A DNA stretch of 64,000 nt from Pseudotabrizicola algicola. GTDB lineage: Bacteria; Pseudomonadota; Alphaproteobacteria; Rhodobacterales; Rhodobacteraceae. The position numbers and the translations under genes were made by a program. A model generated the notes under the pieces. That model was given only the letters and a program-made list of their open reading frames with translations. It did not search any database and had not been told where the DNA came from. Where the stretch lies: positions 558,001-622,000 of the forward strand of contig NZ_JAAIKE010000002.1 in NCBI RefSeq assembly GCF_010915705.1, in the 5' to 3' direction. Below, one piece after another: positions 43,322 through 61,566 of this stretch. How positions within the stretch are numbered: the stretch's first letter is position 1; every line of letters begins with the position of its first letter.

Positions 43322-45355
43322 TCAGATATCTTTGGTCAGACGCAGGGCATCATAGATTGCGGCGTGGGTATTGCGCGACGCCACGGCATCACCGATTCGA
43401 TAAAGCGCAAAGCCGGGCGGACCATCGCCTTTCGGCTGCGGCAGGCCTTTAATCAGGGCGTCATAGTCCAGCGCACCCTTGTTTTGTGACAGAGGCTTCA
43501 GCGCGAAATAGAGGTCTGCCAAAGGCTGCGTGCCATGATTGACGACAACCTGATCGACATGGCGTTCCTTGGTAACGTCCATGTAGTCTGAACCGATCAC
43601 AGCGCGCAGCAGGTTCCCGTCGCGCGCGACCCCGCGCAGGCGATAGGTTACGGTGAAGGTCACCGGCTTGTCCTGGAGCGCCCGCATATAGGGAACAAGG
43701 TTCATTCCCATGACTTCGGGGGCGAAACTGCGGTCGGGCGTCATCACCTCGACGGCGGCACCTGCCTCTGCCAACCGCTGTGCAGCCTGCAGGGCGGTGT
43801 GATCGCCGGCGTCGTCATAAAGCAGCACGTTGGAACCTGACTTCACATCGCCCGAGAGGATATCCCAAGCCGTGACCGTCAGATCATTGCCATATTCCAG
43901 CGCAGCCGTTTCAGGCATGCCTCCGGTTGCTATGATCACGACATCCGGCGACAGGCCGAGCACGTCTTCAGCTTCCGCATAGGTATTGAAATGAAAGGCG
44001 ACACCGCGCGCGGCGCATTGTGCCATGCGCCAGTCGATGATGCCGATCATCTCTGCCCGTCGCTTGGTCTGCGCGGTCAGACGCACCTGCCCGCCGGGCT
44101 GATCGGCAGCTTCGAAAACGGTGACCTGATGACCGCGCTCGGCAGCCACCCGCGCGGCCTCCAAACCTGCAGGTCCGGCACCGACGATCACCACGCGCTT
44201 TTGCTCGGTCGCAGGGGAAATGCTGTGCGGCATGGTTTCTTCACGACCCGTCGCAGGGTTGTGGATGCAAAGGGCCATGCCGCCTTGATAAATCCGGTCA
44301 AGGCAATACGTCGCGCCAACGCAGGGGCGGATATCCTCCTCGCGACCTTCGGCGATTTTACGCACGATATGCGGGTCGGCCATATGCGCCCGCGTCATCC
44401 CCACCATGTCAAGTTGGCCCGACTGCACAGCATAGCGTGCGGTCGCCACATCGGGAATGCGCGCCGCATGAAAGGTGGGCAGCCCCACTTCAGCGCGGAC
44501 GCGGCCCGCAAAATCCAGATGCGGGGCAGAGCGCATGCCCTGAATCGGAATGACATCGGTCATCGCGGGGTCGGTATGGATGCGCCCTTTGATAATGTTC
44601 AGGAAATCCACAAGGCCCGAGTCGCGGAACATCTTGCCGATGGCAATGCCTTCGTCGGCATCGATCCCGCCTTGCACGCCCTCATCGGCCGTATAGCGGA
44701 CGCCCAGCAAAAACCGCTCTCCCACCCGCTTGCGGCAGGCAGACAGAACTTCCATCGCAAAGCGCGCACGGTTCTCGAGACTGCCACCATAAGGCGCATC
44801 AAGGCCGTTGGTGAGCGGCGAGAGAAATTGATCCATCAGATGGCCGTAGCACTCGAATTCCACCCCATCGAGGCCAGCAGCCTGCATCCGTTCGGCAGCA
44901 TCGGCATAGTCGCGGATGATACGGTCAATGTCCCAATCTTCCGCGATCTTGGGAAAGGCGCGGTGAGCGGGCTCTCGCGATGGCCCGGCAGCAACCACCG
45001 GAAGCCAATCCCCCTTGTCCCATCGGGTGCGGCGACCAAGGTGTGTAAGCTGGATCATCACCGCGGCGCCCGCTTCGTGACAATCGTCGCTCAGCCGCTT
45101 GAGCCACGGCACAACCTCGTCCTTATAGGCAAGGATATTGTTGAACACAGGGGGGCTGTCCTTGGACACAGCCGCCGATCCAGCCGTCATGGTCAGTGCC
45201 ACTCCGGCCTTGGCACGCTCCAGATGATAGAGCCGATACCGGTCTTTCGGCATCCCGTCTTCGGGATAGGCCGGTTCGTGACTCGTGGTCATAATCCGGT
45301 TGCGCAAGGTCAGATGCTTGAGCTTATAGGGCGTCAACAGGGGGTCATTCGACAT
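43322..45355 (-). CDS. TMADH/DgcA/StcD-like flavin oxidoreductase
   Basis: A 677-residue two-part flavoprotein. Residues 1-370 form an old-yellow-enzyme FMN barrel; residues about 375-677 form an FAD/NAD-like domain starting VVIVGAGPAGLEAARVA. Between them PCVGATYCLDRIY and MALCIHNPATG carry three cysteines where trimethylamine dehydrogenase has four cluster ligands. The family includes enzymes that demethylate dimethylglycine or N-methylproline. The start is ATG 45355; ATG 45358 is adjacent. It is divergent from the molybdenum hydroxylase operon. Confidence 0.85.
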   Translation of the reverse strand: MSNDPLLTPYKLKHLTLRNRIMTTSHEPAYPEDGMPKDRYRLYHLERAKAGVALTMTAGSAAVSKDSPPVFNNILAYKDEVVPWLKRLSDDCHEAGAAVMIQLTHLGRRTRWDKGDWLPVVAAGPSREPAHRAFPKIAEDWDIDRIIRDYADAAERMQAAGLDGVEFECYGHLMDQFLSPLTNGLDAPYGGSLENRARFAMEVLSACRKRVGERFLLGVRYTADEGVQGGIDADEGIAIGKMFRDSGLVDFLNIIKGRIHTDPAMTDVIPIQGMRSAPHLDFAGRVRAEVGLPTFHAARIPDVATARYAVQSGQLDMVGMTRAHMADPHIVRKIAEGREEDIRPCVGATYCLDRIYQGGMALCIHNPATGREETMPHSISPATEQKRVVIVGAGPAGLEAARVAAERGHQVTVFEAADQPGGQVRLTAQTKRRAEMIGIIDWRMAQCAARGVAFHFNTYAEAEDVLGLSPDVVIIATGGMPETAALEYGNDLTVTAWDILSGDVKSGSNVLLYDDAGDHTALQAAQRLAEAGAAVEVMTPDRSFAPEVMGMNLVPYMRALQDKPVTFTVTYRLRGVARDGNLLRAVIGSDYMDVTKERHVDQVVVNHGTQPLADLYFALKPLSQNKGALDYDALIKGLPQPKGDGPPGFALYRIGDAVASRNTHAAIYDALRLTKDI

Positions 45356-45385
45356 CAAGCACCTCGCGCATTCAGGTCTAGCCTA

Positions 45386-45412
45386 GGTTCAGCGCCAAAG
45401 CCGCGCTGAACC
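45386..45412. promoter_or_regulatory. perfect inverted repeat in the divergent promoter region
   Basis: GGTTCAGCGC (45386-45395) and GCGCTGAACC (45403-45412) are exact reverse complements with a 7-bp spacer. The element is 31 bp upstream of the flavoprotein start and 99 bp upstream of the hydroxylase operon. It may be a shared operator or a leader hairpin. No regulator gene is adjacent. Confidence 0.6.
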
Positions 45413-45510: not shown

Positions 45511-46338
45511 ATGGGCGGCTATGCGCAGCCACAGACACTGAGCGAAGCTCTCGGCTTGATCGCACAATCGCCGCGCAAAATTCTGGCAGGCGGCACAGAC
45601 CTTTACCCCGGCGCGGGCACGTCGCTTCAGGGTGATTTGCTGGACATCACGGCGATTTCCGCGCTGAGCGGGATTTCACAGGATCGCGACATCCGTATCG
45701 GCGCGTGCACAACATGGACCGCAATAGCCGAGGCCGATCTGCCGCCTGCGCTGCACTGTCTGCAACAGGCCGCACGACAGGTCGGCGGACGGCAAGTGCA
45801 AAACGCGGGAACAATCGGCGGCAACCTGTGCAACGCTTCACCGGCGGCAGACGGGGTGCCCCCTTTGCTCGCCCTTGACGCCGAGGTGGAACTGGCAGGC
45901 CCGCACCAGACCCGCCGTCTGCCCTTGTCGCGCTTTCTTGTCGGGCCACGCCAGACCCTGCGCAAGCCTGATGAGGTGTTGACGGCGATCATCCTTCCCG
46001 CCGGCTCTGCCCAAGGGCGGTCAAGTTTTGTCAAACTGGGTGCAAGGGCGTATCTGGTCATTTCCATCGCGATGGTTGCCGCTAGACTAGAACTTGCCAA
46101 TCGCCAAATCAGCGCTGCCGCCATCGCGGTCGGGGCCTGCTCGGGCGTTGCGCAGCGTCTTGCCGCAGTCGAACGGGCGCTTCTCGGCGCAGAGGCGGCG
46201 TCGGCGGCAGAGTTGGTGCGCACGGCGGATGTTGCGGCGGCACTTTCCCCGATCGACGATATACGGGCAACCGCCGGTTACCGTGTGGCAGCGGCGACGG
46301 AACTTGTGCGGCGCGCGGTGCAAGAGGCTTTGGCATGA
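45511..46338 (+). CDS. molybdenum hydroxylase FAD subunit (CoxM/XdhB-like)
   Basis: A 275-residue FAD-binding subunit of the xanthine-dehydrogenase family. FAD contacts are AGGTDLYPG (about 28-36) and [17 protein letters not shown] (about 108-124). The last 100 residues are the CO-dehydrogenase-type C-terminal domain. A GGGGAAAG ribosome binding site precedes the ATG. It is joined by a 4-bp overlap to the gene for the iron-sulfur/molybdenum subunit and begins the thirteen-gene catabolic operon. Confidence 0.92.
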
Positions 46339-48992
46339 TCAGCTTCACGCTCAACGGCCAAAGTGTCACCAGCACCGCCGCCCCCGGCACGCGCCTGACC
46401 GAAGTTCTGCGCGAATATCTGGGGACAAAGGGCACCAAGGTCGGGTGTGATGCAGGCGATTGCGGGGCCTGCACAGTCTTGGTGAATGGCGCGCAGGTTT
46501 GCGCCTGTCTGGTTCCGGCGGCGCGGGTGTCTGGCGCGCATGTGGAAACGGTCGAGTCGCAAGCGGCTGATCTCGACAGGCTGCGCACCGCCTTTTTGCG
46601 CCACGGCGCAGCACAATGCGGCATCTGCACGCCAGGTATGTTGATGGCGGGGGTTGATCTGTTGCGCCGCACCTCCGCCCCGACAGCGGCTCAGGTAGAG
46701 CAAGCCCTTGGCGGTATTCTGTGCCGCTGCACGGGCTATCGCAAGATCATCGCCGCGATCCTTGATTCTGCTAACATAGAGCCTGTTTTCGGGTCGGTTG
46801 GCGTGTCTGTGCCACGGCTGGACGGGGCGGCAAAAGTGCACGGGGACAGTTTCGGCGCGGATGAGGCCCCCGCGGATGCGCTCATGGTGGTTGCCGTGCG
46901 GTCTCCTCATGCGCATGCGGAGTTCCGTTTTGGCGATCTGGCTGGCTTTGGCAAAACGCCGGGTGTCGCGGCGGTCTTCACCGCCGAAGATATTCCCGGC
47001 CGCAATGCCTTTGGCGTGATCCCCGCTTTCGCAGATCAACCCGCCATCGCCCAAAGCCCGGCGCGATTTCGCGGTGAATGTGTGGCCCTCGTTGCTTACG
47101 AGCCCTGGGCAACACCGGATCTGAGCGGTTTTCCAATCGTCTGGACACCCCTGCCCGCCCTTACAACGCCAGCACAGGCCGAGACGAACGGCGCGGCGCT
47201 TGTGCATCCTGATCGCCCGAATAACCGGTTGATCGAAGGCCGCGTCTGTAAGGGCGATGCGCCTGCGGCGCTTGCCGGGTCTGCACATGTTGTCAGCGGC
47301 ACAATGCAGACCGGCTTTGTGGAACATGCCTATATAGAGCCCGAAGCCGGCGCCGCCTGGATGGAAGGCGATGTTCTGACTATCCGCGCCTGCACCCAGG
47401 CCCCGGTGATGGACAGGGATGACACCGCCTTGGTTCTGGGGCTGCCGCAAGACCGCGTGCGGATCATCCCCTCTGCTGTTGGGGGCGGATTTGGCTCCAA
47501 ACTCGACCTCAGCCTGCAGCCCTTGATCGGGTTGGTCACACTCAAGACCGGGCGGTCATGCCGGATGATTTATTCCCGGCAAGAAAGCATGGTTTCGACG
47601 ACCAAACGCCATCCGTCGGAAATGCAGGGCAGCATCGGCTGCGATGCCAGTGGACGGCTTACCGGCATGGTCTTTGAAGGCCGCTTTGATACGGGCGCCT
47701 ATGCCAGTTGGGGGCCAACGGTTGCCAATCGGGTGCCAGTGCATGTGACCGGACCTTACCGCACACCGCATGTCATGGCACGCGCCCGCGCCATCCACAC
47801 CCACGGGCCGGTATCGGGAGCATTTCGCGGCTTCGGGGTGCCGCAGGCCGCATTGTGGCAGGAGACGCTGTTTGACCCGCTGGCAGAGCAGGCAGGGCTG
47901 GACAGGCTGGAGTTTCGCATTCTGAACGCGCTGCGCGATGGCGATGAAACGGCGACCGGACAGCTTGTCAATTCGGCAGGTATTCATGCCTGCCTGACAG
48001 CGCTGCGCCCCCACTGGCAGCGCGCCTTGGCAGAGACGGGTCGAGGGCGCGGCGTCGGGGTGGCGTCCTGCTGGTATGGCTGCGGGAATACGGCGCTTCC
48101 GAACCCGTCGACGATCCGCATCGGTCTTTCGCCGCAGGGCCGTGTTTTCCTTCATCAGGGTGCGACCGATATCGGTCAGGGGTCCAATACCGTGATTGCC
48201 CAGATCGCAGCGGAGGCGGTGGGTCTGCCGTTAACCCAGTTCACCCTCATCGGTCCCGATACAGCCCTGACGCCCGACGCAGGCAAAACTTCTGCCAGCC
48301 GGCAGACCTACGTGACGGGTCGCGCCGCAAAGGCTGCCGGAGAATCATTGCGGCAGCAGATCTTGCGACTGGCGAATGCCGGAGAGGGCGCGAGTTTGTC
48401 GGTGATCGGGGCAAACCTGCACATTGCCGAGGGGCAAGACCGGCGCTTGCTCGATCTGGCAAGCCTGCCTGTGGATCGGCATGGCTATGTCCTGTGCGCC
48501 GAAGAAACCTATGATCCGCCCACATCGGCGCTGGATGAAAACGGCCAGGGCGCGCCCTATGCGGTTTACGGCTATGGTGCGCAGATGGTGGAGCTGGAGG
48601 TCGATGCTGCGCTTGGCACGATCCGACTGCTGAAGATCACGGCGGCGCATGATGTGGGTCGCGCGATCAACCCGCAGCTTGCCACAGGGCAGATAGAGGG
48701 CGGAGTCGCGCAAGGCATCGGGCTTGCACTGATGGAAGAATATCTGCCGGGCCGCACGGAAAATCTGCACGATTATCTGATCCCGACAATCGGTGACGTG
48801 CCCCCGATCGAAAGCCTGTTGATAGAGGTGCCCGACCCTGAAGGCCCCTATGGTGCGAAAGGTCTGGGTGAACATGTGCTGATCCCCACCGCGCCTGCGA
48901 TCTTGAACGCAATCCGCCATGCAACGGGCATACGGTTGGCACAGGTGCCTGCCTTGCCGCATCGCGTGCTTGCGGCACTCAGGGGGGCATGA
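46335..48992 (+). CDS. molybdenum hydroxylase, fused [2Fe-2S] and molybdopterin subunits
   Basis: An 885-residue fusion. Residues 1-155 are the two-cluster iron-sulfur subunit: [16 protein letters not shown] for the plant-type cluster, and CGICTPGM with CRCTGYRK for the second. From about 155 on is the molybdopterin domain: [22 protein letters not shown] and, near the C-terminus, [16 protein letters not shown] with the expected catalytic glutamate. Such enzymes add oxygen from water to a ring carbon next to nitrogen or to an aldehyde. Location beside a hydroxynicotinate-reductase-like gene favours an N-heterocycle as substrate. Confidence 0.9.
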
Positions 48993-50437
48993 TGGCCGAC
49001 CAGAATATTGAGAAGATTCGCTGCGATGCCTGCCCGGTGATGTGCTACATCGCACCGGGCCAGACGGGTGCCTGCGACCGCTATGCAAATGTCGATGGCC
49101 GCATCCTGCGCACTGATCCGGTGGTGCTTTTGTCACGAACGGTCGAGACAGGGGGGCGCATCGTGCCCTTTGCCACCCGCGACTGGCAGGGAGAACCCTT
49201 TCCCGCCGACAGCTTTGTAACGGGAATAGGGTCAGGCACGACATATCCCGACTACAAGCCTGCACCGTTCATCGTCTCCTCCAGCATCGAAGGGGCCGAC
49301 ATGGTCACCGTGGTGACAGAGGCAATCTTTTCCTATTGCGGGGTCAAGGTGAAGATCGACACCGACCGGCATCTGGGGCCCGAAGGCGCCATCGTGCGGG
49401 CGGACGGCGAAGCGGTAGGCCATATCACCACCGCCGAATATGGCAGCCAGATGCTGTCCCTCGGCGGGGTGCAGCACCTGACAGGCGGCAGCAAGGCCGA
49501 GGGGCGGATCACCTGTGCCGCCCTTCTTGCCCTTTGCAATGGCAAGGCGGTAGCGTTGACAATTGACGGAGGCTCAAGCGTGACCGTGCAGGCGGGTCAG
49601 CCCCCCATCGTCGATGGCAGACCGGAAAGACGGATGCGCGTAGGCTGCGGGTCGGCCACAATCGGCATGTTTGCAAGCCAATGGGTGGGCCTTGTGGATG
49701 AGGTGGTGGTGGTCGATGACCACATCACCGGAGTTGTCAGCGAACATCAGGCCGGAAAGGTGCTGGGCTGGCAGCCGACAGGCATCCGGATCAAAGGCCA
49801 TCGGTCCACACCGGGCCGCTATTTCCGCGTCTCCGAACCCGGGCTTGGCTGGGGTGGAACCAAGCTCAGCGATCCGCTGGACATTTTGGCCCCGTGGGAG
49901 GCCAAGCGCGGCGCCAGACCGGGCTTGCGCCTGCTTATGGTGTCTACGACCGGTGAGGAATATGCCTATTACGAGCTTGATGAGAGCCTGACACCCCAAA
50001 AGCAGCCGTTGCCAGAGGCGCTGCGGGCGACAGTCGCCATGATCGACGAAAACTGCGAGCCCTCGCTTTGCACTGTGCTGTTCATCGGGGGTGCCGGAGG
50101 GTCTTTGCGGGCCGGGGTCACACAAAACCCGGTGCGGCTTACCCGGTCGGTGCAGGCCGGAGAGACCCGACTGACAAGCGGAGGGGCGGACTGTTATGTC
50201 TGGCCCGGCGGCGGCATCACCTTCATGGTGGATGTTACGCGCCTGCCTGCGGGTGCCTTTGGCTATGTGCCGACTCCCGCACTTGTCGCGCCGCTCGAAT
50301 TTACCCTGCCCCGTGCGGCGTATCTGGCGATGGGGGGGCATGAAGATGCCATACGCGATCTTGCACAGACCCGTCTTGAGGGAGGCGAATATCAGGTAGA
50401 GGCGCGTATCCAGCCGCCACCCGCGCGCGGTCCATGA
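48989..50437 (+). CDS. 6-hydroxynicotinate reductase-like iron-sulfur protein
   Basis: A 482-residue protein of the type annotated as 6-hydroxynicotinate reductase. Four N-terminal cysteines, C12, C15, C19 and C29, look like a [4Fe-4S] site. The rest is rich in Gly and has no standard flavin motif that I can point to. In Eubacterium barkeri the enzyme reduces 6-hydroxynicotinate to the 1,4,5,6-tetrahydro-6-oxo form. Here it lies between a ring hydroxylase and hydantoinase genes, so the same class of reaction fits. The exact substrate is inferred. Starts in an ATGA overlap. Confidence 0.72.
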
Positions 50438-51270
50438 CCGGAGCCGTCATCGCCCGGCTGCCGGACGGTCGGCTTCACCTTCACCACGGCCCGATTGATC
50501 TTATCCTCCAGACCTGGGGCGATCCGATGGCGACTGCCGAGGCAGAGCGGCGCGCGTCAGCAAGATTCGGCTCTATTCTTGCGGAATTGGTGTCAGAGCT
50601 TCCCCTTCTGCGCCAAGAAGGCGGGCAGCCGACAGGCCATGTTGCGCGCAAGATGGCGGCAGCGACCAGACATTTTGCACCAAAGTTCATCACACCGATG
50701 GCGGCAGTGGCGGGCGCTGTGGCGGATGCGATCTGTGCAGAGGTCGCCATCGATGGCATCACGCGCGCCTATGTCAACAATGGCGGCGACATCGCCTTGC
50801 ACCTCGCGCCCGGTCACAGCCTGACTTGCGCCGTTGCGGTCGGATCAGATCTGCCGGCCCGCGTGACAGTGCGGGCCGAAGATGCGGTGCGCGGCATTGC
50901 CACATCCGGTTGGCGCGGACGAAGCTGGTCCCTGGGGATTGCCGATTCAGTGACTGTTCTTGCCAGAACAGCGGCAGAGGCGGACGCAGCGGCCACGATG
51001 ATTGCCAATGCTGTTGACCTGCCCGATCATCCGGGAATATTGCGCCAACCCGCGTCAGACCTGCAGGCCGAGAGTGATCTGGGGGCGCGGCTGGTGACTG
51101 TTTCCGTCTTCGGCCTGACGGCTGAAGACATTGCGCAGGCGCTTGACGCGGGCGAGATGGCGGCCGCAGACTTTCACCAGCGCGGACTTATTGAAGCCGC
51201 CGCGCTTTTCCTGCACCCTCAGACACGCACGCTTGGCCCGTTACGCTTGAAGGAACCTGCTTTTGACTGA
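50434..51270 (+). CDS. UPF0280 family protein (ApbE-like fold)
   Basis: A 278-residue UPF0280 protein. The segment AYVNNGGDIALHL (about 110-122) resembles the glycine motif of ApbE flavin transferases, and the family is thought to share that fold. Its biochemical role is not known. It is translationally coupled (ATGA) to the reductase-like gene and overlaps the DUF1185 gene by 8 bp, so it probably helps make or use the reductase, for example with a flavin cofactor. Confidence 0.75.
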   Translation: MTGAVIARLPDGRLHLHHGPIDLILQTWGDPMATAEAERRASARFGSILAELVSELPLLRQEGGQPTGHVARKMAAATRHFAPKFITPMAAVAGAVADAICAEVAIDGITRAYVNNGGDIALHLAPGHSLTCAVAVGSDLPARVTVRAEDAVRGIATSGWRGRSWSLGIADSVTVLARTAAEADAAATMIANAVDLPDHPGILRQPASDLQAESDLGARLVTVSVFGLTAEDIAQALDAGEMAAADFHQRGLIEAAALFLHPQTRTLGPLRLKEPAFD

Positions 51271-51844
51271 TTTCGTCCTGCGCAAGATCACCACCCAGAT
51301 AGAGGAAATCCTGCACGAAGGCGGCCCTGCCGCCACCCTTCCGGTGCTGCGCGGCGCGATCTATGCCATCTGCAGCAACCCCTATGCCGGGCGTTATGAA
51401 GAAAACCTGCTGCCTGCGATGGATGCGCTCAAACCCTTGGCCCTGATGCTGACCGATCGTCTGGTGGCAGCAATGGGCGGGCGCGACGGGATTGACGCCT
51501 ATGGCAAGGGGGCCATTGTGGGCGAAGCGGGCGAGGCGGAACATGGCGCTATCTGGCATGTGTCGGGGGGTTACGGGATGCGAGAGCGGCTGGGCGAATG
51601 CCGGGCTATCGTGCCTTCGGCGATGAAGGTCGGGGGGATGGGCAGCACGCTTGATATTCCGTTGGGCCATCTCAACGCGGCCTATGTGCGCTCACGCTTC
51701 GATGCGATCACTATCGCCTGCGAAGACGGGCCCCGCAGCGGTGAAGTTCTGTTCGCCTTGGCAATGGCGCGCGGGGGGCGGGTTCATTCCCGCATGGGCG
51801 GACTTGAGATTGGTCAGGTCAAGGGCGAGGACGGCTTGAGATGA
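51263..51844 (+). CDS. DUF1185 (amino acid synthesis family) protein
   Basis: A 193-residue protein of the DUF1185 family, named amino-acid synthesis protein in databases without a known reaction. It has YGKGAIVGEAGEAEHGA (about 79-95) and MGSTLDIPLGHLNAAYVRS, both conserved-looking and rich in Gly and acidic residues. The start is TTG 51263 after AAGGA. It recurs with hydantoinase and amide-transport genes, which is consistent with a step on a ring-opened intermediate. The function here is open. Confidence 0.75.
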   Translation: MTDFVLRKITTQIEEILHEGGPAATLPVLRGAIYAICSNPYAGRYEENLLPAMDALKPLALMLTDRLVAAMGGRDGIDAYGKGAIVGEAGEAEHGAIWHVSGGYGMRERLGECRAIVPSAMKVGGMGSTLDIPLGHLNAAYVRSRFDAITIACEDGPRSGEVLFALAMARGGRVHSRMGGLEIGQVKGEDGLR

Positions 51845-53187
51845 GGGCGCTTGCAGGGGCACTGACGCTCCTGCCAGGTGCGGCCTTTGCCTGCGCCCTG
51901 CCGCCTTCGGTAATCTTGACGCTGCCAACGGGGCATTACATCGCCGGAGCCGCGTTAACGGTTGCCTTAACAGCAATCATGGGGGCAATGGCGCGCACTC
52001 TGCCGCGGCTTGACGCGGTTCAGGTACTGGAGCGGCGAATCTGGGTGCCCCTTACCGTGTCATCCTACCTGTCGTTCCTGTGCTTTCTGGCGCTGGTTCT
52101 GGTGGGCCTGTTCGGGGCGCGCGACCCGATGCACAATCTGATGACCTTGGTATTCTGGACTGGCGTGTGGATAGCCCTGCCCCTTGCATCAATGGCGTTT
52201 GGCAATCTGTGGCGCCCCCTCAACCCCTGGACGGGTCCGGTGCGCATCGCCCGGACCCTGATAGGGCGCACAGGGGCGGTTGGCCTGCACCGCCTTGGTT
52301 ACTGGCCCGCTGTTCTCGGCTTTGCCGGGTTCACATGGTTTCAACTGATGTCGATGTCACCCGACGATCCGACGGTGCTGGCTTGGGTGGCCTTGGCGTA
52401 TTGGCTGGTCATTTTCGCTCTGGCTGTGGCCGAGGGCGAGGACTGGCTGGCACAGGGCGAGTTCCTGACGGTTCTGATGGGATATCTGGCCAAAGTCTCG
52501 CCTGTCTGGCTTGAAATCGACGGGGCGCGCGCCCGGCTGATGCGGGGCTGGCCCGGCGCGCAGGTGCTGCGCATGCCGCCGTTGTCGGTCTCGGCAATGG
52601 CTTTTGTAACGCTGGTTCTGTCCGCGCTGACGTTTGACGGGCTGATGGAAACCTTTTGGTGGCACGGTATCATCGGAGAGAACCCGCTGGAGCCGACGGG
52701 ACGATCGGCCGTGATCTGGGTCAACACTCTGGGGCTGCTATGCGTGTGGGCCTCGACCGTCACCGCGATCTGGGCGGTGATCCGACTGGGCCAGAGACTA
52801 GGTGGCCAAGAATTTGCGGCCGGGCCGGTGATGCTGTCATTTCTGGCCATCGCAGCAGGATACCATGCATCGCACTACCTGATCACCCTGTTGACGGCGG
52901 GGCAATATACGTTGGCAGCGCTGAATGATCCTTGGTTTCGCGGTGACGCTTATCTCGGCTTGCCGCCGTTTTATGTGTCTTTCGGCTTTCTGACCGATCA
53001 AACGATCATGCCCATGATATATGCCGCGCAATTTGGCGCCATCCTTGCGGCACATCTCCTCGCAGTGGTGTTGTCCTTGCGGATGGTGGGCCATCTGCGA
53101 GCCATCGCGCATGCACCGATGACCGTGTTGATGGTCGCCTACACCGTTTTGGGTCTTTGGCTGTTGTCTACGGCGCGGACAGGCTAA
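51841..53187 (+). CDS. multi-pass membrane protein of unknown function
   Basis: A 448-residue integral membrane protein with about eleven hydrophobic segments and no family motif I can name. Residues rich in Trp, Gly and Pro lie in the loops (FGNLWRPLNPWTGP; ETFWWHGIIGENPLEP). A His cluster, GYHASHYL, is in a late helix. The ATG overlaps the DUF1185 stop, so it belongs to the operon. It could be a second transporter or part of an electron-transfer route to the reductase; neither is supported by a motif. Confidence 0.65.
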   Translation: MRALAGALTLLPGAAFACALPPSVILTLPTGHYIAGAALTVALTAIMGAMARTLPRLDAVQVLERRIWVPLTVSSYLSFLCFLALVLVGLFGARDPMHNLMTLVFWTGVWIALPLASMAFGNLWRPLNPWTGPVRIARTLIGRTGAVGLHRLGYWPAVLGFAGFTWFQLMSMSPDDPTVLAWVALAYWLVIFALAVAEGEDWLAQGEFLTVLMGYLAKVSPVWLEIDGARARLMRGWPGAQVLRMPPLSVSAMAFVTLVLSALTFDGLMETFWWHGIIGENPLEPTGRSAVIWVNTLGLLCVWASTVTAIWAVIRLGQRLGGQEFAAGPVMLSFLAIAAGYHASHYLITLLTAGQYTLAALNDPWFRGDAYLGLPPFYVSFGFLTDQTIMPMIYAAQFGAILAAHLLAVVLSLRMVGHLRAIAHAPMTVLMVAYTVLGLWLLSTARTG

Positions 53188-53273
53188 GAAATTCGTGGAC
53201 AAATGGCTTGTCCCGGCGAAAGGTTTTTCCGAGGCCCCGCAAGAGGCGCCCCGCAACAGTGGAGATGTTGGAC
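53188..53273 (+). promoter_or_regulatory. gap before the binding-protein gene, with the RBS that fixes its start
   Basis: This 86-bp gap holds a small hairpin, GGACAA (53197-53202) with TTGTCC (53208-53213). GGAG at 53261-53264 lies 9 nt before ATG 53274 and directly against ATG 53265, so 53274 is the likely start. It is one of the few real gaps in the operon and may carry an internal promoter. Confidence 0.5.
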
Positions 53274-54554
53274 ATGACTCAAAAACTCATCGGGATGGCC
53301 CCCTCGCGGCGCGCGGTGTTGAAGGGCGCGGGTGCCGGATTGCTGACGGCTGGCTTTGCAGCCCCTGTCTGGTCGCAGGCCGCCCCTATCAAGCTCGGAT
53401 TTCAGTTGCATCGCACCGGCATCGGGGCCGCTTACGGGCGCTGGTATGAACGCACTGCACAGGCCGCACTGAAGGTTGTGAACGATGCCGGCGGCATCAA
53501 CGGGCGGCCCGTCGAAATTGTGTTCGAAGATGATGGGACAGACCCCAAGCGCGGTGCGGAGGTTGTGGAAAAGCTCACCAGCCAACACAATTGCGACCTG
53601 ATCTTCGGGCCCTTGTTCAGCCATGTCGTCATCGGCTCTGCCCCGCGCGCGGGTGAACTGAAGGTGCCCTATCTGGTCTGTTCGGAAGGCTTTCACGTTG
53701 CCAGCGGCATGCTGAACCGCTGGACGATGCAGCCCGGAATCACCGATGTGCGCGCGCAGGTCAGCTCGATGGCCCCTTGGGTTCTGGCCAACTTGGGCAA
53801 GAAGGTTACGATGGTGTATCCGGATTACGCCTTCGGCCATGACCACCGCGATTTTTTCTCTGCGGCGGTCGAAGCGGGCGGCGGAGAGGTGATTGCCAAG
53901 GTTGCGGTTCCGCCGACCGAGACAAGCTTTACCCGCTATCTCCCGCAGATCCCCAATGACACCGAAGTGCTGTATCACGTCATGGTCGGACCTGCGGTTC
54001 TGACCTTCGTGAAGGAACTGGGTGAGTTTTACGGCTTAGGTGCCAAGCCGCAGATCTTTGGCTTCATCGACTCGCTCGAGGCTGTGGATATCGCCTCGCC
54101 GGGTCTGGAATTTCTGGAGGGCACCCATTTCTGGGAAGGCCACTGCCGCAACCAGCAGGCCGATGCGTCCGAGCACGAGGTGGCCTATCGCGCCGCGGTC
54201 GGGGTGGATGCAAACGGGGCGTCGGTTTCGGACGCAAAAGACGTATCGACCTACGCGCATATGTTCAGCGTGTGGGAAACCTTGCATGTCATCAAGGCAG
54301 GGATGGAAGCCGCAGGCTATCAGGGGCCGGCAGATCGGCAAAAGTTTGTCGAAGCTGTAGAAGCGATGACAGAGATGCCTGAAAGCCTTGCCCACGTGCA
54401 GGGTGACAAGGTGTTCAACGGCAAGACCCATCAGGTCTTTGGTCACCAGTTCATCAGCAAGGTTGAAGGCGGCAAGCTGGTAAAGGTGCATACAACCAGC
54501 ATCGAGGACAGCATCTACCCCGACGCCGTAGACTATATGACACAGAGCTTCTGA
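53274..54554 (+). CDS. ABC transporter substrate-binding protein, amide/amino-acid type
   Basis: A 426-residue exported binding protein of the Leu/Ile/Val and urea/amide type. The Tat signal is SRRAVLKGAGAG followed by a hydrophobic stretch and a site near VWSQA. The mature protein starts IKLGFQLHRTG and has GGINGRPVEIVFEDDGTDP, as in amide-binding AmiC/UrtA relatives. It should capture the substrate of the operon in the periplasm. The strong hairpin after the gene probably raises its mRNA level. Confidence 0.9.
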   Translation: MTQKLIGMAPSRRAVLKGAGAGLLTAGFAAPVWSQAAPIKLGFQLHRTGIGAAYGRWYERTAQAALKVVNDAGGINGRPVEIVFEDDGTDPKRGAEVVEKLTSQHNCDLIFGPLFSHVVIGSAPRAGELKVPYLVCSEGFHVASGMLNRWTMQPGITDVRAQVSSMAPWVLANLGKKVTMVYPDYAFGHDHRDFFSAAVEAGGGEVIAKVAVPPTETSFTRYLPQIPNDTEVLYHVMVGPAVLTFVKELGEFYGLGAKPQIFGFIDSLEAVDIASPGLEFLEGTHFWEGHCRNQQADASEHEVAYRAAVGVDANGASVSDAKDVSTYAHMFSVWETLHVIKAGMEAAGYQGPADRQKFVEAVEAMTEMPESLAHVQGDKVFNGKTHQVFGHQFISKVEGGKLVKVHTTSIEDSIYPDAVDYMTQSF

Positions 54555-54603
54555 GTGTGGTCATCGCCTGATAGGGCAGGTCTTGCCATGCCATGCCACA
54601 TTC

Positions 54604-54630
54604 CCCCCTCGCAGAGGCGCTGCGAGGGGG
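54604..54630 (+). repeat. strong intercistronic hairpin after the binding-protein gene
   Basis: CCCCCTCGCA (54604-54613) and TGCGAGGGGG (54621-54630) pair perfectly over 10 bp with loop GAGGCGC. There is no T-run. It lies between the binding-protein and permease genes, where such hairpins often protect the upstream mRNA. Its location supports the later start (54659) for the permease. Confidence 0.7.
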
Positions 54631-54658
54631 TGGATGGCTGGGGGACACGCGTGCGCAG

Positions 54659-55537
54659 ATGAGTTTTGGCCCGTTTCTTTTGCTCGCCGTGCTGGAAGGC
54701 ACCGTCATGGCGGCTGTGCTCGCGCTGACTGCGGTGGGGCTTTCGCTGGTCTTCGGAGTCATGCGGGTGGTCAATGTCGCGCATGGCGAGCTTTACATGC
54801 TGGGCGCGGTCATTGCTTGGTTCGTCACCTTTTACCTTCCCTTGCCCCCCGCGATGGGATGGTTGGCCGCCCTGATCATCGCTCCGCTTTTGGTGGCGGC
54901 GATTGCCGCGCTGATGGATACGCTCATCCTGAAACGCCTGAACTACGACCCCGAAGCGACAATCGTGGCGACCATCGGGCTGCTTTACATGTTGCAGCAG
55001 GCCGCCCTTACCTTTTACGGCCCCGACGCGCGTCCGGTGGTGGCTCCCTTCCAGTGGCGTATCCAACTGCCGTGGTTCGGCTATTCCGGCTACAAACTCT
55101 TTGTGGTGGCGGCGGCCTTGGCAATCCTTCTGGCGGTCTGGCTTTTCATGACGCGCACCAAGGCCGGCCTGGTCATGCGCGCCACACAGGTGGACCGCGA
55201 GACGGCTCAGGCCTTTGGCATCAATGTCGACAGGGTCTATGCTGGCACTTTTGCCTTGGGCGGGGCCCTTGCGGCGGCGGCGGCGGTGTTGATCGTTCCG
55301 ATCCAGCAGGCGCATTACCTTATGGGGCATGACCCACTGCTGCTGTCCTTCATCGTGGTGATCATTGGCGGCCTCGGCTCTATCCGCGGCACTTTGGTGG
55401 CGGCGCTCGTCATCGGGCTGTCGGACGGAATCATCAGCATGTTCTTTTCCCCGACTCTGGCCAAGATCATCGCCACGCTGCTTGTGGCGCTGGTGCTTGT
55501 GTTCCGGCCGCAGGGCTTGTTCGGAGCGCGGGCATGA
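54659..55537 (+). CDS. ABC transporter permease, LivH type
   Basis: A 292-residue inner-membrane permease with about eight membrane segments. VFGVMRVVNVAHGELYMLGA is the LivH/UrtB signature at about 30-49, and ETAQAFGINVDRVYAGTFAL is the loop that contacts the ATPases. Starting at ATG 54659 (MSFGPF) gives the normal LivH N-terminus; the frame is open from 54593, which would read through a 10-bp hairpin. Overlaps the LivM gene by 4 bp. Confidence 0.9.
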   Translation: MSFGPFLLLAVLEGTVMAAVLALTAVGLSLVFGVMRVVNVAHGELYMLGAVIAWFVTFYLPLPPAMGWLAALIIAPLLVAAIAALMDTLILKRLNYDPEATIVATIGLLYMLQQAALTFYGPDARPVVAPFQWRIQLPWFGYSGYKLFVVAAALAILLAVWLFMTRTKAGLVMRATQVDRETAQAFGINVDRVYAGTFALGGALAAAAAVLIVPIQQAHYLMGHDPLLLSFIVVIIGGLGSIRGTLVAALVIGLSDGIISMFFSPTLAKIIATLLVALVLVFRPQGLFGARA

Positions 55538-56478
55538 GTGCGGGAACAAAGGCTTGGGGCCTTCACCTCCTTGTTCTTGCTTTGGTGTTTCTGGCGCAAT
55601 TCGTGCTGCCGTCCTATCACGCCACCAATCTGGCGCGGATTATGGTGCTTGCCGTCTTTGCGATGGGCTACAACCTTGCCTTTGGCTACACCGGCTTGTT
55701 GTCGCTGGGCCACGCGCTGTTTTTTGCAGCCGGTCTATATGGAATGGGCCTGCCGATCTGGCATCTGGAGGTGGCCGCCTTTCCCGCCCTTATCCTCGGG
55801 CTGTTGGCGGGCGGAGTGATGGCGGGGCTGGTCGGGATCTTGGCCCTCCGCACGGCAGGGGTCAGCTTCATGATCGTGACCCTGATGTTCGCACAGGCCG
55901 GATATCTGACGCTGCTTTACCTGAACAGTTGGACAGGTGGCGACGAAGGCTTTGTCGTTGCACGCAGCGCAAGGGTGCTGTTCGGCTTTGATCTTGCATC
56001 TGACACGCCCCGTTTCATCGCCGCCTTCGTGCTGTTTGCCGCGGGCCTGCTGCTGTGTTTATGGCTGGTGCGATCGCCTTTTGGCCGCGTGATGGTTGCC
56101 ATGCGCGAGAATGAAGAGCGCAGCCGCATGCTTGGCTATGACCCCTTCCGCGTCAAACTGATCACACTGATCCTGTCCGGGGTTTATGCCGGCGGGGCGG
56201 GTGCGGCTTACGGGCTGCTCTTTGGCTATGTGGGTGGCAGCTTTGCCACGATCCAATACTCCATTCTGCCCATGCTTTATGTGCTGCTCGGCGGCGCCGG
56301 CACGGTGCTTGGCCCGTTTCTCGGGGCGCTTTTGATGTTCTATCTGATCGATATCACAAGCGGTTATACCGATGCCTATTTCTTTGTCGTCGGGGCGGCC
56401 TTGGTTGCCTTGGTGCTGTTCGCGCCCAAGGGCATCCTTGGCAGCTTGCGCGAAAGGGTGCTGCAATGGCTGCCATGA
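55534..56478 (+). CDS. ABC transporter permease, LivM type
   Basis: A 314-residue permease. AMGYNLAFGYTGLLSLGHAL (about 49-68) is the LivM signature. About nine hydrophobic segments are seen. The coupling loop is RSRMLGYDPFRVKLITL. It pairs with the LivH-type subunit to form the membrane channel. Its 3' end overlaps the ATPase gene by 13 bp. Confidence 0.9.
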   Translation: MSAGTKAWGLHLLVLALVFLAQFVLPSYHATNLARIMVLAVFAMGYNLAFGYTGLLSLGHALFFAAGLYGMGLPIWHLEVAAFPALILGLLAGGVMAGLVGILALRTAGVSFMIVTLMFAQAGYLTLLYLNSWTGGDEGFVVARSARVLFGFDLASDTPRFIAAFVLFAAGLLLCLWLVRSPFGRVMVAMRENEERSRMLGYDPFRVKLITLILSGVYAGGAGAAYGLLFGYVGGSFATIQYSILPMLYVLLGGAGTVLGPFLGALLMFYLIDITSGYTDAYFFVVGAALVALVLFAPKGILGSLRERVLQWLP

Positions 56479-57171
56479 TCGAGGCCAAAGGCCTGACACG
56501 GTGTTTTGGCGGGTTGCGCGCGGTGGATGGCGTAGACTTCACGCTGGAAAGCGGTGAAATCCACGGTCTGATTGGACCCAATGGCGCCGGAAAAACAACC
56601 TTTGTCAGCCTGCTTTCCGGCCGGGTTCCGGTGCAGTCGGGCACCATCCGGCTGCAAGGAGAAGACATCACGCAATTGCCCGCGCATCAGCGCGTGCGCA
56701 AGGGCGTGGCCTATACCTTCCAGATCACCTCGGTCTATCCTCGTTTGTCCGTGTTCGACAACGTGGCACTGGCATCGCAAAGCCATAGCGCTGGCAACGT
56801 GGCCGAGGGCGTGGCCGAAGCCTTGGCGAAGGTGGGACTGACAGGGCTGGAGCAGGCAATTGCAGGCACATTGTCTTACGGCCACCAGCGCCTGCTGGAG
56901 GTGGCTATGGGCCTCGCGCTGAAACCCCTTGTGCTGATACTGGACGAGCCGACGCAGGGCCTTGCCTCGGGCGAGATCGACGGGTTCAAGACCCTGATCC
57001 GGTCTTTGGTGCCGAACACCACGATCTTGCTGATAGAACACAACATGGATGTGGTGATGGATCTGGCCCATCGCATTACGGTGCTGAACTTCGGTCAGGT
57101 CTTGGCCATCGGGACACCGACACAAATCCGCCAGAACAGAGCCGTTCAGGAAGCCTATCTGGGGGGCGACG

Positions 57172-57185
<14 letters not shown>
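56466..57185 (+). CDS. ABC transporter ATP-binding protein, LivG type
   Basis: A 239-residue ATPase with Walker A GPNGAGKTTF, the Q-loop at YTFQITSVYP, signature-like LSYGHQRLLEVA, and Walker B LILDEPTQGL. The signature is LSYGHQ rather than LSGGQ, as in many LivG/UrtD relatives. The start is ATG 56466 inside the livM end; ATG 56475 is also possible. Confidence 0.9.
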
Positions 57186-57866
<681 letters not shown>

Positions 57867-57867
<1 letters not shown>

Positions 57868-59891
57868 TGCCGGGGCTAGTGGCAGGTATCGATGTGGGCG
57901 GCACCTTTACCGATCTGGTTATCGTCGATCCGGCGACAGGCTCGGTGCGCCTGGCAAAAGTGCCCACGACCTTGCCCAACCAGGCCCCCGGCGTTTTGAA
58001 CGCTTTGGACGAGGCCGGGGCTGCGCTGGAAGAGATTGATCTGATCGTGCATGGCACGACCACGACGACCAATGCCGTCTTGGAAAGGGCGCTGGCCAGA
58101 ACCGGACTGATCACCACGTTCGGCTTTCGTGATGTTTTCGAGCTGGGCCGCCGCACCCGGCCAAAGGCCTACGGCATGACAGGACGCTTCGTTCCCATCA
58201 TCCCGCGCGATTTGCGGCTTGAAGTGCCGGAACGTATGGACGCGCGCGGCACCGTTCTTACCGCACTGGACGAAACCGCAGTCAGATCGGCGGCACAGAC
58301 CCTGATCGAGATGGGATGCGAGGCTGTGGTGATCCACTTTCTGCATGCCTATGCCAACCCCAGCCATGAACTGCGCGCGGCCCAGATCGTCGCCGAAGTC
58401 TGGCCGAACGCGTATATCACGACCGGACATTCACTGCTGTCGGAAAGCCGCGAATACGAGCGGGGGGTGACGGCGGCTGTCAATGCAAGCGTCCAGCCGC
58501 TGCTGGAACGCTATGTCACCCGTCTTGCCGACAAACTGGCCGACCGCGGGTATCGGCGTGACCTTTTGGTGATGAATGGCAACGGCGGTATGGTTTCGGC
58601 CAGAACCGTCTCGAAAGAAGCGGTGAAAACCGTCATGTCGGGGCCCGCCTCAGGGGTGATGGCTGCCATCGCGACCGGACGGCGTGCGGGCCGGATGAAT
58701 CTTCTTACCTATGACATGGGCGGCACATCGACCGATGTCGCGATGATCCGCAACGGGCGGGCGCCCGTGTCGAACGAGATCGAGGTTGAATATGCCATGC
58801 CGATCCACGTGCCGATGGTGGATGTGCGCACAGTCGGGGCGGGCGGCGGGTCTATTGCGCGGATTGATGCAGGGGGCATGCTGCGGGTGGGGCCGGAAAG
58901 CGCAGGGTCCAGCCCCGGCCCGATCTGTTACGGGCGCGGCGGCACCAAAGTGACGATTTCCGATGCCAATCTGCTGTTGGGCCGCCTGCCCGCTGGCCGG
59001 TTCGGGCAAGCGGCGCTGGCGGCGCGGGAGGCGATGGCCGAACAGATCGCCGCGCCCCTCGGGCTGAGCGTGGAACAGGCAGCCGAAGCTGTGGTGCGTA
59101 TAGCCAATACCCATATGGCCGGTGCCATTCGAATGGTCTCGCTTTCTGTGGGGGCCGATCCGAGGGATTTCGCGCTTTTTGCTTTTGGCGGTGCCGGCCC
59201 GTTACATGCTGTGGCTCTGGCGCGTGAACTGGCGGTGCCAACCGTGCTTATTCCGGCACGACCGGGCATTACGAATGCGCTGGGCTGTGTGGTGGCGGAC
59301 CTGCGCCAAGACTTTGTGCGCACGCTTAACCAGCCGGTTGATCGGGTGGATATAGACACTGTGCATGCCATTTTTGCCGAGCAGGAGGCAGAGGGGCGCA
59401 AGTTGATCGGGGCGGAAAACATCCGTCTGGTCAACGTTCGTGCCGAGTATTCCGCCGACATGCAGTTTGTGGGGCAGACGCATCTGATGCGGGTGGCGTT
59501 GCCACATGGCCAACCGTCAAGACAAGATCTGCAGCGCCTGTTCGAAGAGGCTTATCACCAGCGCTTTCGTGTCGACCTGCCCAGCATCAAGGCCAATCTG
59601 GTGAACCTGAACGTCTCTGTCATCGGGGAGAGGCCGGAGATGGACCTGTCGGCGCTGATAGACCGATCAGAGCGGCGGGCCGAAGCGGTGCCTTCGGAAT
59701 GGCGGCAGGTGTGGTTTGACGGGAGCTGGGTTCACACGCCGGTTTATTGGCGGGATCATTTGCCGCTTTCCCTTTCGCTGAGTGGCCCCGCGATCATCGA
59801 GCAGATGGACACCACGGTGATGATCGAGCCGGACTGCCATGTCACCTCTGATCCCGATGGCAACTTGATTGTCGAGGTTCGGCATGATTGA
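57867..59891 (+). CDS. hyuA: hydantoinase/oxoprolinase subunit A
   Basis: A 674-residue HyuA-type subunit. The phosphate-binding motif is GIDVGGTFTDLVIVD at the N-terminus; MGGTSTDVAMIRNG (about residues 288-301) is the second ATP-site motif. Together with HyuB these enzymes use ATP to open cyclic amides such as hydantoin, 5-oxoproline or N-methylhydantoin, and related subunits carboxylate ketones. Ring opening fits the operon best. The start is ATG 57867; GTG 57864 is possible. Confidence 0.9.
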
Positions 59892-61566
59892 CCCCGTCAC
59901 GCTCGCAGTGATTCAGGCCGGATTGCAGCAAGTCTGCGATGAAATGGACCTTAGTTTCAGCCGCGCTGCGTTTTCCCCTGTCATTGCAGAGGCGGACGAC
60001 AGATCTGACGGCATCTATAGTGCCGAAGACGGCAGCCTGATCGCGCAAGGGTCCAAAGGACTTCCGGTTTTTGTGGGTGTCATGCAGTTTTCGACGCGGA
60101 GCATCTTGCAGCGCATCAAAAGCGGCGTGACGCCGGCCCCCGAACAGGGCGACATCTATATGGTGAATGATCCCTATCTCGGGGGCACTCATCTGATGGA
60201 TGTGCGTTTTGCCATGCCGGTCTGGCGCGACGGGCGCATTTTCTGCTGGCTGTCGAATACCGGCCACTGGCCAGACACCGGGGGGATGGTGCCAGGCGGT
60301 TTCAGTGCCAGCGCCATCAGCGCCGAACAGGAAGGGCTGCGGATTCCTCCGGTAAAACTGTTCAAGAAGGGCGTGCTGGATACAGAAATCTGGCAGATCA
60401 TCTGCTCTAACATCCGGGTCTCCGATCAGCGGATCGGTGACGTGCAGGCGCAGGCCAGTGCGCTTATGGTCGGGGCTGATCGGCTGGCGGTTCTGCTCGA
60501 CCGCTATGGCGATGCCACGGTTTCAGCCGCAATTGAGGAAATGCGCACCCGCGCCGCGCAGCAGATGCGGGCGATGATAGACCTGATCCCGGACGGAGAT
60601 TACAGCGCAACGGCCATTGTCGACTCAGATGGCGTTGTCGATGCGCCGCTGAACATCACCGTCACCGTGTCCAAATCCGGTCAGGGTCTGCTGTTCGATT
60701 TCTCCAAAAGCTCCCCCCCCTGCATGGGGCCGATGAATTCGGTTCGGGCGACCACGCTTTCGTCAGTGTATCTGGCGATGCGTCATATCTTCCCCGATGT
60801 TCCTATCAGCGCAGGTGCGTTCGAGCCGCTTCAGGTCGTCGGACTGGAAGGCACGTTTCTGGATGCCCAATACCCGCGGCCCGTCTCTGGCTGCGCGGCG
60901 GAAGTCAGCCAGCGCATCGCCGAAGCGGTTTTCGCCGCCTTGGTGCAAGCCATTCCTGATCGCGTGCCTGCCGCACCCGCAGGAACAAGCGGCAATTTCG
61001 GTCTGGGCGGGTTTGATCCAGCCTCTGGGCAAAGCTACGTCATGTATCAGATTTCCGGGGGCGGTTATGGTGGCAATGCCGACCATGACGGGCTGTCGAA
61101 CGGCTGCTCGACCATCGGCATTTCGAAGGCGCCACCGGTTGAAATCATGGAGCAGAAGTTTCCTGTGCTCTATCGCCGTTACGCCCTGCACGAGGGCAGC
61201 GGCGGTGCCGGCCAGCAACGGGGCGGCTTCGGTCTGGACTACGAGATCGAACTGCTGCGGGGTGAAGCCCGCGCAAGCTTTGTTATGGATCACGGGCGCA
61301 CGGGGCCTTTGGGCGCGCTTGGCGGTCAGGATGGGGCCGTGAACCGTGTCGAGGTGATGCAGCGGGACACTGTTTTTGTGCCACCGCATCTTTCCAAGGC
61401 ACAAGATATCTTGCTTCAACCGGGCGACAGGGTGCGGGTGCGCACCCCCGGCGGGGGCGGTTTTGGCGATCCGGCATGGCGTGATCCGGCAAGGATCGCT
61501 GAGGACATCCGTTTGGGCTATTACACCGCAGAACAGGCGGGCGAGCGCTGGAAACGGCAGGATTAG
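59884..61566 (+). CDS. hyuB: hydantoinase/oxoprolinase subunit B
   Basis: A 560-residue HyuB-type subunit. It has MVNDPYLGGTHLMDVR (about residues 85-100) and GWPDTGG-like WPDTGGMVPGGFS, with the C-terminal RVRTPGGGGFGDP that is typical of the family. The start is ATG 59884, overlapping the hyuA end by 8 bp; the frame starts at 59869 but the first ATG inside hyuA is preferred. It forms the catalytic complex with HyuA and is the last gene of the operon, with its end overlapping nagA. Confidence 0.9.
   Translation: MIDPVTLAVIQAGLQQVCDEMDLSFSRAAFSPVIAEADDRSDGIYSAEDGSLIAQGSKGLPVFVGVMQFSTRSILQRIKSGVTPAPEQGDIYMVNDPYLGGTHLMDVRFAMPVWRDGRIFCWLSNTGHWPDTGGMVPGGFSASAISAEQEGLRIPPVKLFKKGVLDTEIWQIICSNIRVSDQRIGDVQAQASALMVGADRLAVLLDRYGDATVSAAIEEMRTRAAQQMRAMIDLIPDGDYSATAIVDSDGVVDAPLNITVTVSKSGQGLLFDFSKSSPPCMGPMNSVRATTLSSVYLAMRHIFPDVPISAGAFEPLQVVGLEGTFLDAQYPRPVSGCAAEVSQRIAEAVFAALVQAIPDRVPAAPAGTSGNFGLGGFDPASGQSYVMYQISGGGYGGNADHDGLSNGCSTIGISKAPPVEIMEQKFPVLYRRYALHEGSGGAGQQRGGFGLDYEIELLRGEARASFVMDHGRTGPLGALGGQDGAVNRVEVMQRDTVFVPPHLSKAQDILLQPGDRVRVRTPGGGGFGDPAWRDPARIAEDIRLGYYTAEQAGERWKRQD

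Follow-up and report, generated by a model that had tools for sequence, protein, structure and literature searches.

HyuAB probably takes the place of enamidase in a putative reductive nicotinate operon of Pseudotabrizicola algicola

In a stretch of 64,000 nucleotides of Pseudotabrizicola algicola DNA (contig NZ_JAAIKE010000002.1, positions 558,001 to 622,000; hereafter the window), 13 open reading frames (ORFs), all on the + strand, span positions 45511-61566. They encode, in this order, the flavin adenine dinucleotide (FAD) subunit and the fused iron-sulfur (FeS) and molybdenum (Mo) subunit of a Mo-hydroxylase, a 6-hydroxynicotinate reductase-like protein (Hnr), UPF0280, DUF1185, a membrane protein, the substrate-binding protein, two permeases and two ATPases of an ATP-binding cassette (ABC) transporter, HyuA and HyuB. 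The question raised by this operon is which enzyme would open the reduced lactam ring, as the 4.49 Mb assembly of this genome contains no enamidase match at E <= 1e-3. We think it probable that the operon degrades nicotinate by ring reduction and that HyuAB opens 1,4,5,6-tetrahydro-6-oxonicotinate (THON) with ATP in enamidase's place.

The first-pass annotation, made from the sequence of the window, had proposed that HyuAB replaces enamidase and had suggested comparing hnr neighbourhoods for the two openers. We ran this comparison genome-wide. The first sample comprised 289 genomes from across the window's class, 44 with Hnr and 245 Hnr-negative; the second, phylum-wide, comprised 398 genomes, of which 32 have Hnr and 28 of these are new. 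HyuA of the window type was called at E <= 2e-238 and at least 56% identity, the next match in Hnr genomes being 51% identical, and enamidase was called at 67% identity or more, with the next match at 42%. The enamidase probe, a cluster amidohydrolase, matches the Eubacterium barkeri enamidase 2VUN at 2.1e-109, the sole PDB sequence at E <= 1e-5. Among the 44 Hnr genomes, 26 carry HyuA only, 17 enamidase only, none both and one neither; the lone genome without an opener (G226) is 70% complete. The Hnr-negative genomes gave HyuA type in 2/245 and enamidase in 1/245. Of the 28 further Hnr genomes, 12 have HyuA only, 14 enamidase only, two both and none neither (a 47% identical HyuA in G636 was left out of this count). 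Pooled over 72 Hnr genomes, the numbers are 38, 31, two and one, respectively. Plasmid loci, examined in 12 of the 26 plasmid records with a match, contained HyuA in seven cases and enamidase in five, with no case of both or neither. The outcome is clear in that the openers are near-exclusive, and it supports the proposed replacement.

This replacement can also be seen within a single locus. The genomes G104 (L183) and G210 (L184) are sisters on the Hnr tree (100/100), and hyuB-hyuA in the former and enamidase in the latter occupy the same slot, with a Mo subunit common to both on one side and common flanking genes on the other. On the first strand the two loci share Hnr (77% identity), UPF0280 (58%) and two DUF1185 genes (78% and 63%); on the other strand the Mo subunit (69%) is followed by the opener, two isochorismatase-type genes (49% and 71%) and a short-chain-dehydrogenase-like gene (68%); further on, again on the first strand, are a TctA-type gene (80%) and an FAD enzyme (77%). 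In G210 the stretch from DUF1185 to the Mo subunit also contains three extra ORFs, of which one is MCP-like and another flavin-reductase-like. Exchange within one slot points to the same substrate for HyuAB and enamidase. In wider comparisons, Sagittula and Pseudosulfitobacter (HyuAB) are like Sulfitobacter pontiacus (enamidase) in their remaining gene content but not in gene order, and Neorhizobium and Allorhizobium (HyuAB) have a transporter, membrane protein and Hnr module in common with R. gallicum and Rhizobium sp. 007 (enamidase), the hydroxylase differing as well. On an Hnr tree with 71 of the 72 rows (the Hnr of G475, which has no locus, was left out), the enamidase label requires eight changes, and starred branches force at least five of these; for the HyuA-only label there are 11 changes, at least eight of them forced, with the two genomes that have both adding to the count. 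The labels are also mixed on the Mo-subunit and UPF0280 trees. We consider the HyuAB/enamidase exchange well supported by these comparisons, and it is very likely that a different enzyme family than enamidase performs the ring-opening step.

The window operon bears out its initial description as 13 mostly overlapping genes of named families on one strand. At ten of the 12 junctions the genes overlap, by 4 to 23 bases; at the remaining two they are separated, by 77 bases (from the membrane protein to the substrate-binding protein, with ATG 53265 as start) and by 38 bases (from the substrate-binding protein to the first permease). Families were assigned by Pfam and NCBIfam profile searches with a match limit of E <= 0.001, and these agree with the labels. 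A Fuscovulum ytuae plasmid has an identical 13-gene order; its Hnr homologue, at 84% identity, bears the annotation 6-hydroxynicotinate reductase, and a sensor kinase and a sigma-54 regulator come after hyuAB there (L153 26767-29401). Most named relatives of Hnr at 76-89% identity carry the label Rhodobacteraceae, Paracoccaceae or a genus of that group. The operon is genuine and belongs to a known kind of pathway. Its genes are as follows.

45511..46338, + strand: Mo-hydroxylase FAD subunit (PF00941, FAD_binding_5, 4.9e-41; PF03450, CO_deh_flav_C, 5e-12)
46335..48992, + strand: Mo-hydroxylase fused 2Fe-2S and Mo subunit, putative nicotinate 6-hydroxylase (Fer2, Fer2_2, MoCoBD_1/2)
48989..50437, + strand: 6-hydroxynicotinate reductase-like protein, Hnr (84% identical relative so annotated; N-terminal Cys motif)
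50434..51270, + strand: UPF0280, ApbE-superfamily relative, putative flavin transferase or maturase of Hnr (NF003322, 1.1e-104)
51263..51844, + strand: DUF1185, clade a on its tree (PF06684, 6.5e-64; PDB 3BYQ, 1.4e-49)
51841..53187, + strand: polytopic membrane protein (unnamed family), associated with the ABC transporter
53265..54554, + strand: Liv-type substrate-binding protein (PF13458, 1.7e-52; start probably at ATG 53265, longest ORF from 53157)
54593..55537, + strand: ABC permease, LivH type (PF02653, BPD_transp_2, 1.4e-36)
55534..56478, + strand: ABC permease, LivM type (PF02653, BPD_transp_2, 7.2e-38)
56466..57185, + strand: ABC ATPase, LivG type (PF00005, ABC_tran, 3.9e-33)
57172..57867, + strand: ABC ATPase, LivF type (PF00005, ABC_tran, 1.6e-32)
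57864..59891, + strand: HyuA, predicted ATPase subunit of an ATP-dependent lactamase and putative opener of THON (PF01968, Hydantoinase_A, 2.7e-86)
59869..61566, + strand: HyuB, predicted metal/hydrolase subunit (PF02538, Hydantoinase_B, 1.2e-155; start TTG 59869 or ATG 59884)

We collected the Hnr neighbourhoods of 40 Hnr genomes out of the 44, then those of the remaining three besides the window, some being short at contig ends. The grouping of the genes is not accidental: in the 40 neighbourhoods, several of them cut by contig ends, UPF0280 is present in 39/40, a window-type Mo subunit (at least 51% identity) in 36/40 and DUF1185 in 25/40. Openers, transporters and the hydroxylase differ among the loci. 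A window-type Mo subunit of useful length is missing from the locus in G041, G093, G104, G210 and G184 (in G184 a 62% identical piece runs off the contig end).

HyuA and HyuB retain the residues expected of an ATP-dependent lactamase. These were read from alignments to 6YRA, taken as CapAB from its numbering and length, with the residues that passages of PMC8453981 name. HyuA D10 and D284 align with the ATP-site pair Asp11 and Asp295 of CapA, and HyuB D44, H108, D111 and H133 align with the CapB metal ligands Asp41, His99, Asp102 and His124. As a side observation, the HyuA genes of G168 and G093 each have one stop within the matched stretch. Identity of the pair as caprolactamase was rejected because the NCBIfam equivalog cut-offs are missed: HyuA scores 504.9 bits and HyuB 310.1 bits versus 1000 and 1000.

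The HyuA score weighs against our reading, and so do several other points. The HyuA cut-off was chosen once the scores were known; at E <= 1e-205, HyuA is found in the same 26 Hnr genomes but also in 7/245 Hnr-negative ones (G095 at 55% identity, the others at 49-59%). Fisher p-values for complementarity are tiny but ignore descent. When starred branches of the Hnr tree are used, the independent contrasts number only five, every one complementary (sign test p 0.0625), and with all branches there are eight; the 44-row tree, with seven changes, yields four (p = 0.125). Two genomes carry both openers. The opener is often non-adjacent, lying 75-77 kb from Hnr in G236 and G135. Of 80 named loci, 30 have HyuA and none has enamidase within about 10 kb of Hnr, while 50 show neither, 20 of the latter on cut contigs; because the genomes of these loci were not searched whole, the loci neither support nor oppose complementarity. 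The best PDB matches of the window Mo subunit are aldehyde oxidoreductases, and the chains of nicotinate dehydrogenase 3HRD rank lower (1.5e-70 and 6.8e-62). Paying ATP at enamidase's step is a cost that our reading has to account for; irreversibility or tight control of the substrate may be what it buys. Lastly, the Hnr-negative genomes G114 (L215) and G217 (L216) keep a window-type HyuAB beside the large subunit of another Mo-hydroxylase.

Both of these genomes lack UPF0280 as well as Hnr, and the G217 Mo subunit is 45% identical to the one that adjoins HyuBA in G104. Their HyuAB shows that this pair is not bound to Hnr, which speaks against a strict specificity for THON, and perhaps forms another lactam pathway together with the Mo subunit. 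The same genomes lend something to the idea that HyuAB is not the ring opener and acts elsewhere, carried along in the operon as a hydantoinase, oxoprolinase or carboxylase, an idea also fed by the many paralogues of the HyuAB families, which are multi-copy and functionally diverse. We consider this very unlikely, since the near-perfect complementarity with enamidase and the same-slot swap are not readily explained by it.

The cost in ATP bears on a different alternative. We know of no ATP requirement of enamidase. In the main rival on this point, the pathway is the same but HyuAB acts on the saturated lactam 6-oxopiperidine-3-carboxylate, formed by an extra ene-reduction, and a stable delta-lactam that really needs ATP would be opened to 2-(aminomethyl)glutarate. 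Such six-membered lactams resist hydrolysis, and passages of PMC11033972 describe the related OplAB as hydrolysing six-membered delta-valerolactam with ATP, which is a chemical precedent for our main reading too. A candidate for the extra reduction is encoded next to the operon.

43322..45358, - strand: divergent OYE-type flavoenzyme (OYE/2-enoate-reductase-like; PF00724, 1.3e-48), possible accessory reductase

According to passages of PMC9304392, the breakdown of nicotinate in fungi includes saturation of the ring by an OYE enzyme. The OYE gene is kept at 76-91% identity in 10/80 named loci, all ten with an Hnr at least 77% identical to that of the window. Beyond these, the only match at E <= 1e-8 among the loci compared, Fuscovulum and other-family HyuAB loci included, is a 33% one (L085). 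For this distribution we rejected the OYE enzyme as a general member of the pathway. Its absence from the other loci and the same-slot exchange with enamidase, which points to a shared substrate, make the saturated lactam a quite unlikely substrate for HyuAB, and we retain THON.

Two further features flank the operon. The stretch that separates the OYE gene from the FAD subunit gene contains a perfect 10-base inverted repeat, GGTTCAGCGC / GCGCTGAACC (window 45386-45412), which could be an operator or a hairpin. Downstream, a convergent nagA and a nagB-II-like gene (window 61563-63712, - strand) form an unrelated N-acetylglucosamine locus. We considered the amidohydrolase at 61563-62687 as a hidden enamidase and rejected it: it is NagA (TIGR00221, over cut-off), and the genome has no enamidase match. 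The nagB-II-like gene scores below its cut-off.

Evidence about the substrate comes from other clusters. The HyuAB cluster of Neorhizobium opens with annotated nicA and nicB (nicotinate dehydrogenase), followed by a ferredoxin-NADP reductase gene, the membrane protein gene and livKHMGF, and continues with a MarR gene, hnr, the UPF0280 gene, two DUF1185 genes and hyuAB. The protein encoded by this nicB combines Mo domains with three cytochrome c stretches. NicAB is the nicotinate hydroxylase of P. putida. Relatives of NicB occur near Hnr in Allorhizobium (67% identity; HyuAB) and on a Comamonadaceae plasmid (50%; enamidase), and partial NicB matches lie beside Hnr in eight more loci (L199-L203, L205-L207), all from enamidase genomes. 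Passages of PMC3511419 report that, in growth and resting-cell tests, nicotinate as well as 6-hydroxynicotinate is degraded by Bradyrhizobiaceae SG-6C and that its Hnr homologue, inside a conserved cluster, is 42% identical to E. barkeri Hnr. Because annotated nicAB occurs with HyuAB and SG-6C degrades nicotinate, nicotinate is the likely substrate of the operon. The hydantoins and pyrimidines that the first-pass annotation had listed among the candidates have become less likely, and a hydantoin or pyrimidine pathway is disfavoured, given the exchange with enamidase and the fact that nicAB can be part of the cluster.

It could still be that clusters of the HyuAB type degrade another acid of the 2-hydroxypyridine type or an N-methyl derivative (for example, one derived from trigonelline), with HyuAB opening its reduced lactam. 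The type of Mo subunit and the transporter differ among clusters, and Rieske-type oxygenases are found in some clusters of both opener types. We regard this as unlikely because HyuAB occurs together with an annotated nicotinate dehydrogenase, because the window-type transporter and membrane protein serve HyuAB and enamidase clusters alike and because the opener labels are intermixed on the trees of Hnr, Mo subunit and UPF0280. A VanA-type Rieske oxygenase gene lies in or near the cluster in L037, L038, L046, L048, L052, L055, L069, L072, L154, L232 and L233; it perhaps encodes an N-demethylase that feeds N-methylated pyridines into the pathway.

The identity of the window Hnr as 6-hydroxynicotinate reductase rests on the annotation of its 84% identical relative. 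The protein has no match to a Pfam or NCBIfam model at E <= 0.001 and only three matches among PDB sequences, at E 0.11 or worse. Its AlphaFold model (pLDDT 76, pTM 0.72) gave no Foldseek match at E <= 1e-3. In E. barkeri, Hnr is an iron-sulfur flavoprotein that contains covalent flavin and uses ferredoxin. The window Hnr has an N-terminal motif, C12-x2-C15-x3-C19-x9-C29, of which all four Cys are invariant in 16/16 and 44/44 aligned rows. In one locus (L051, G028) Hnr is encoded in two overlapping frames, possibly from a frameshift or an assembly error. As for the electron supply, 19 loci among the 125 sources scanned have a ferredoxin-NADP reductase gene of the Sagittula type and four have one for a 2-oxoacid:ferredoxin oxidoreductase; the window has neither. 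The 2-oxoacid:ferredoxin oxidoreductase genes adjoin Hnr (L036, L048, L049, L070) and are a possible source of reduced ferredoxin.

UPF0280 (NF003322 score 349.7 bits, cut-off 290) has a sequence relative in the PDB, 2O34, at 1.4e-7. At E <= 1e-10, it is present in exactly the 44 Hnr genomes and in 0/245 others, which suggests that it is a flavin maturase for Hnr, with a role in flavin transfer or maturation. It resembles the ApbE flavin transferases in that N-GGD, TSG and AD-xAT stretches align (hhalign profile comparison over the catalytic core, 93.7%, E 2e-7, 94 columns, 24 against 7 sequences), whereas the window protein has no Pfam match, to ApbE or any other family, at E <= 0.001. The canonical ApbE target motif is D-x-x-[ST]-G-A-[ST]. 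It is absent from the 14 proteins scanned, namely the 13 operon proteins and the OYE enzyme, and the closest variant is Hnr D244-H-I-T-G-V-V-S251, where position 251 is S or T in 16/16 rows and S in 44/44. This resemblance may be chance, or perhaps the D-x-x-T-G-V-x-S/T stretch is a non-canonical flavin site. A bolder version of our reading, which we put forward tentatively and with some doubt, is that HyuAB is an ATP-dependent THON lactamase that was repeatedly exchanged with enamidase and that UPF0280 is a dedicated flavin transferase placing covalent flavin on Hnr at a non-canonical site. If true, a dedicated transferase would explain why UPF0280 and Hnr co-occur in the same 44/289 genomes.

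DUF1185 is associated with Hnr to a degree that depends on the threshold: 29/44 Hnr genomes and 0/245 Hnr-negative ones at E <= 1e-50, and 38/44 and 16/245 at E <= 1e-20. On its tree, clade b (the second copy) has 19 rows, 17 from enamidase loci and two from HyuAB loci (G104 and Sagittula). We rejected clade b as an enamidase marker. The link is loose because HyuAB loci of Neorhizobium, Allorhizobium and Pseudosulfitobacter have two copies as well. The chorismate-mutase-like and YjgF folds are akin, and that DUF1185 might act as a RidA-like enamine hydrolase is only an idea drawn from this kinship; the main text of PMC2954203 contains no occurrence of YjgF or RidA. The membrane protein has no Pfam or NCBIfam match at E <= 0.001; its model is helical (pLDDT 84, pTM 0.86) with no PDB fold match at E <= 1e-3. 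It adjoins the same type of transporter in L057, L061, L064, L153 and L226-L230.

In the pathway that we infer, the Liv-type ABC system would import nicotinate, and the FAD/FeS/Mo enzyme would hydroxylate it to 6-hydroxynicotinate. Hnr, as a ferredoxin-fed iron-sulfur flavoprotein matured by UPF0280, would reduce this to THON. HyuA would then spend ATP to activate the substrate or bicarbonate, and the metal site of HyuB would hydrolyse the lactam ring of THON. The resulting enamine would lose ammonia, perhaps with the help of DUF1185, to give 2-formylglutarate, the carbon of which would go on to glutarate.

This reading would give a testable function to a widespread subgroup of HyuAB so far annotated only as hydantoinase or oxoprolinase, and a partner, hence a role, to the uncharacterised UPF0280 family. 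It would also allow nicotinate degraders to be recognised from genomes in which the pathway would seem broken for want of enamidase. That two unrelated enzyme families, one of them costing ATP, swap repeatedly at what looks like one step is an evolutionary puzzle.

The first-pass annotation knew of no characterised pathway with this combination of genes. Among the papers that searches of the open-licence PMC literature listed, none links HyuAB or UPF0280 with Hnr at the level of titles and abstracts, which is no proof of novelty; in passages of PMC8941161, hyuA and nicotinate dehydrogenase appear only in unrelated contexts. The type of cluster as such has been described before. Passages of PMC3511419 present a nicotinate cluster that is conserved in proteobacteria, Azorhizobium caulinodans and the Bradyrhizobiaceae strain SG-6C among them; like the window operon, it combines an Hnr homologue with a putative ABC transporter and has two unknown genes. 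That cluster is said there to hold the genes of the first three steps, whereas in the window the third step would fall to HyuAB; hydantoin, hyu and oxoprolin do not occur in the main text of PMC3511419. The CapAB and OplAB enzymes (passages of PMC8453981 and PMC11033972) share with the window HyuAB the two subunits and the ATP-site and metal-site residues. Unlike them, the window pair falls below the CapA/CapB cut-offs, is associated with Hnr and has an unsaturated, carboxylated delta-lactam as its presumed substrate. The E. barkeri enamidase (2VUN) would perform the same step as HyuAB and belongs to the amidohydrolase family, judged by Pfam for a cluster orthologue, versus Hydantoinase_A/B in the window. 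The reductive nicotinate pathway of E. barkeri itself proceeds through nicotinate dehydrogenase, Hnr and enamidase to 2-formylglutarate, with the THON and enamidase steps given in passages of PMC9304392. The window is like it in having a Mo hydroxylase and an Hnr homologue, after which lactam opening is expected, and differs in having no enamidase match in its genome and in carrying HyuAB in one operon with UPF0280, DUF1185 and an ABC importer. The best reading of the window operon is that it is a variant of the E. barkeri and Azorhizobium route, with the HyuAB opener as its new element.

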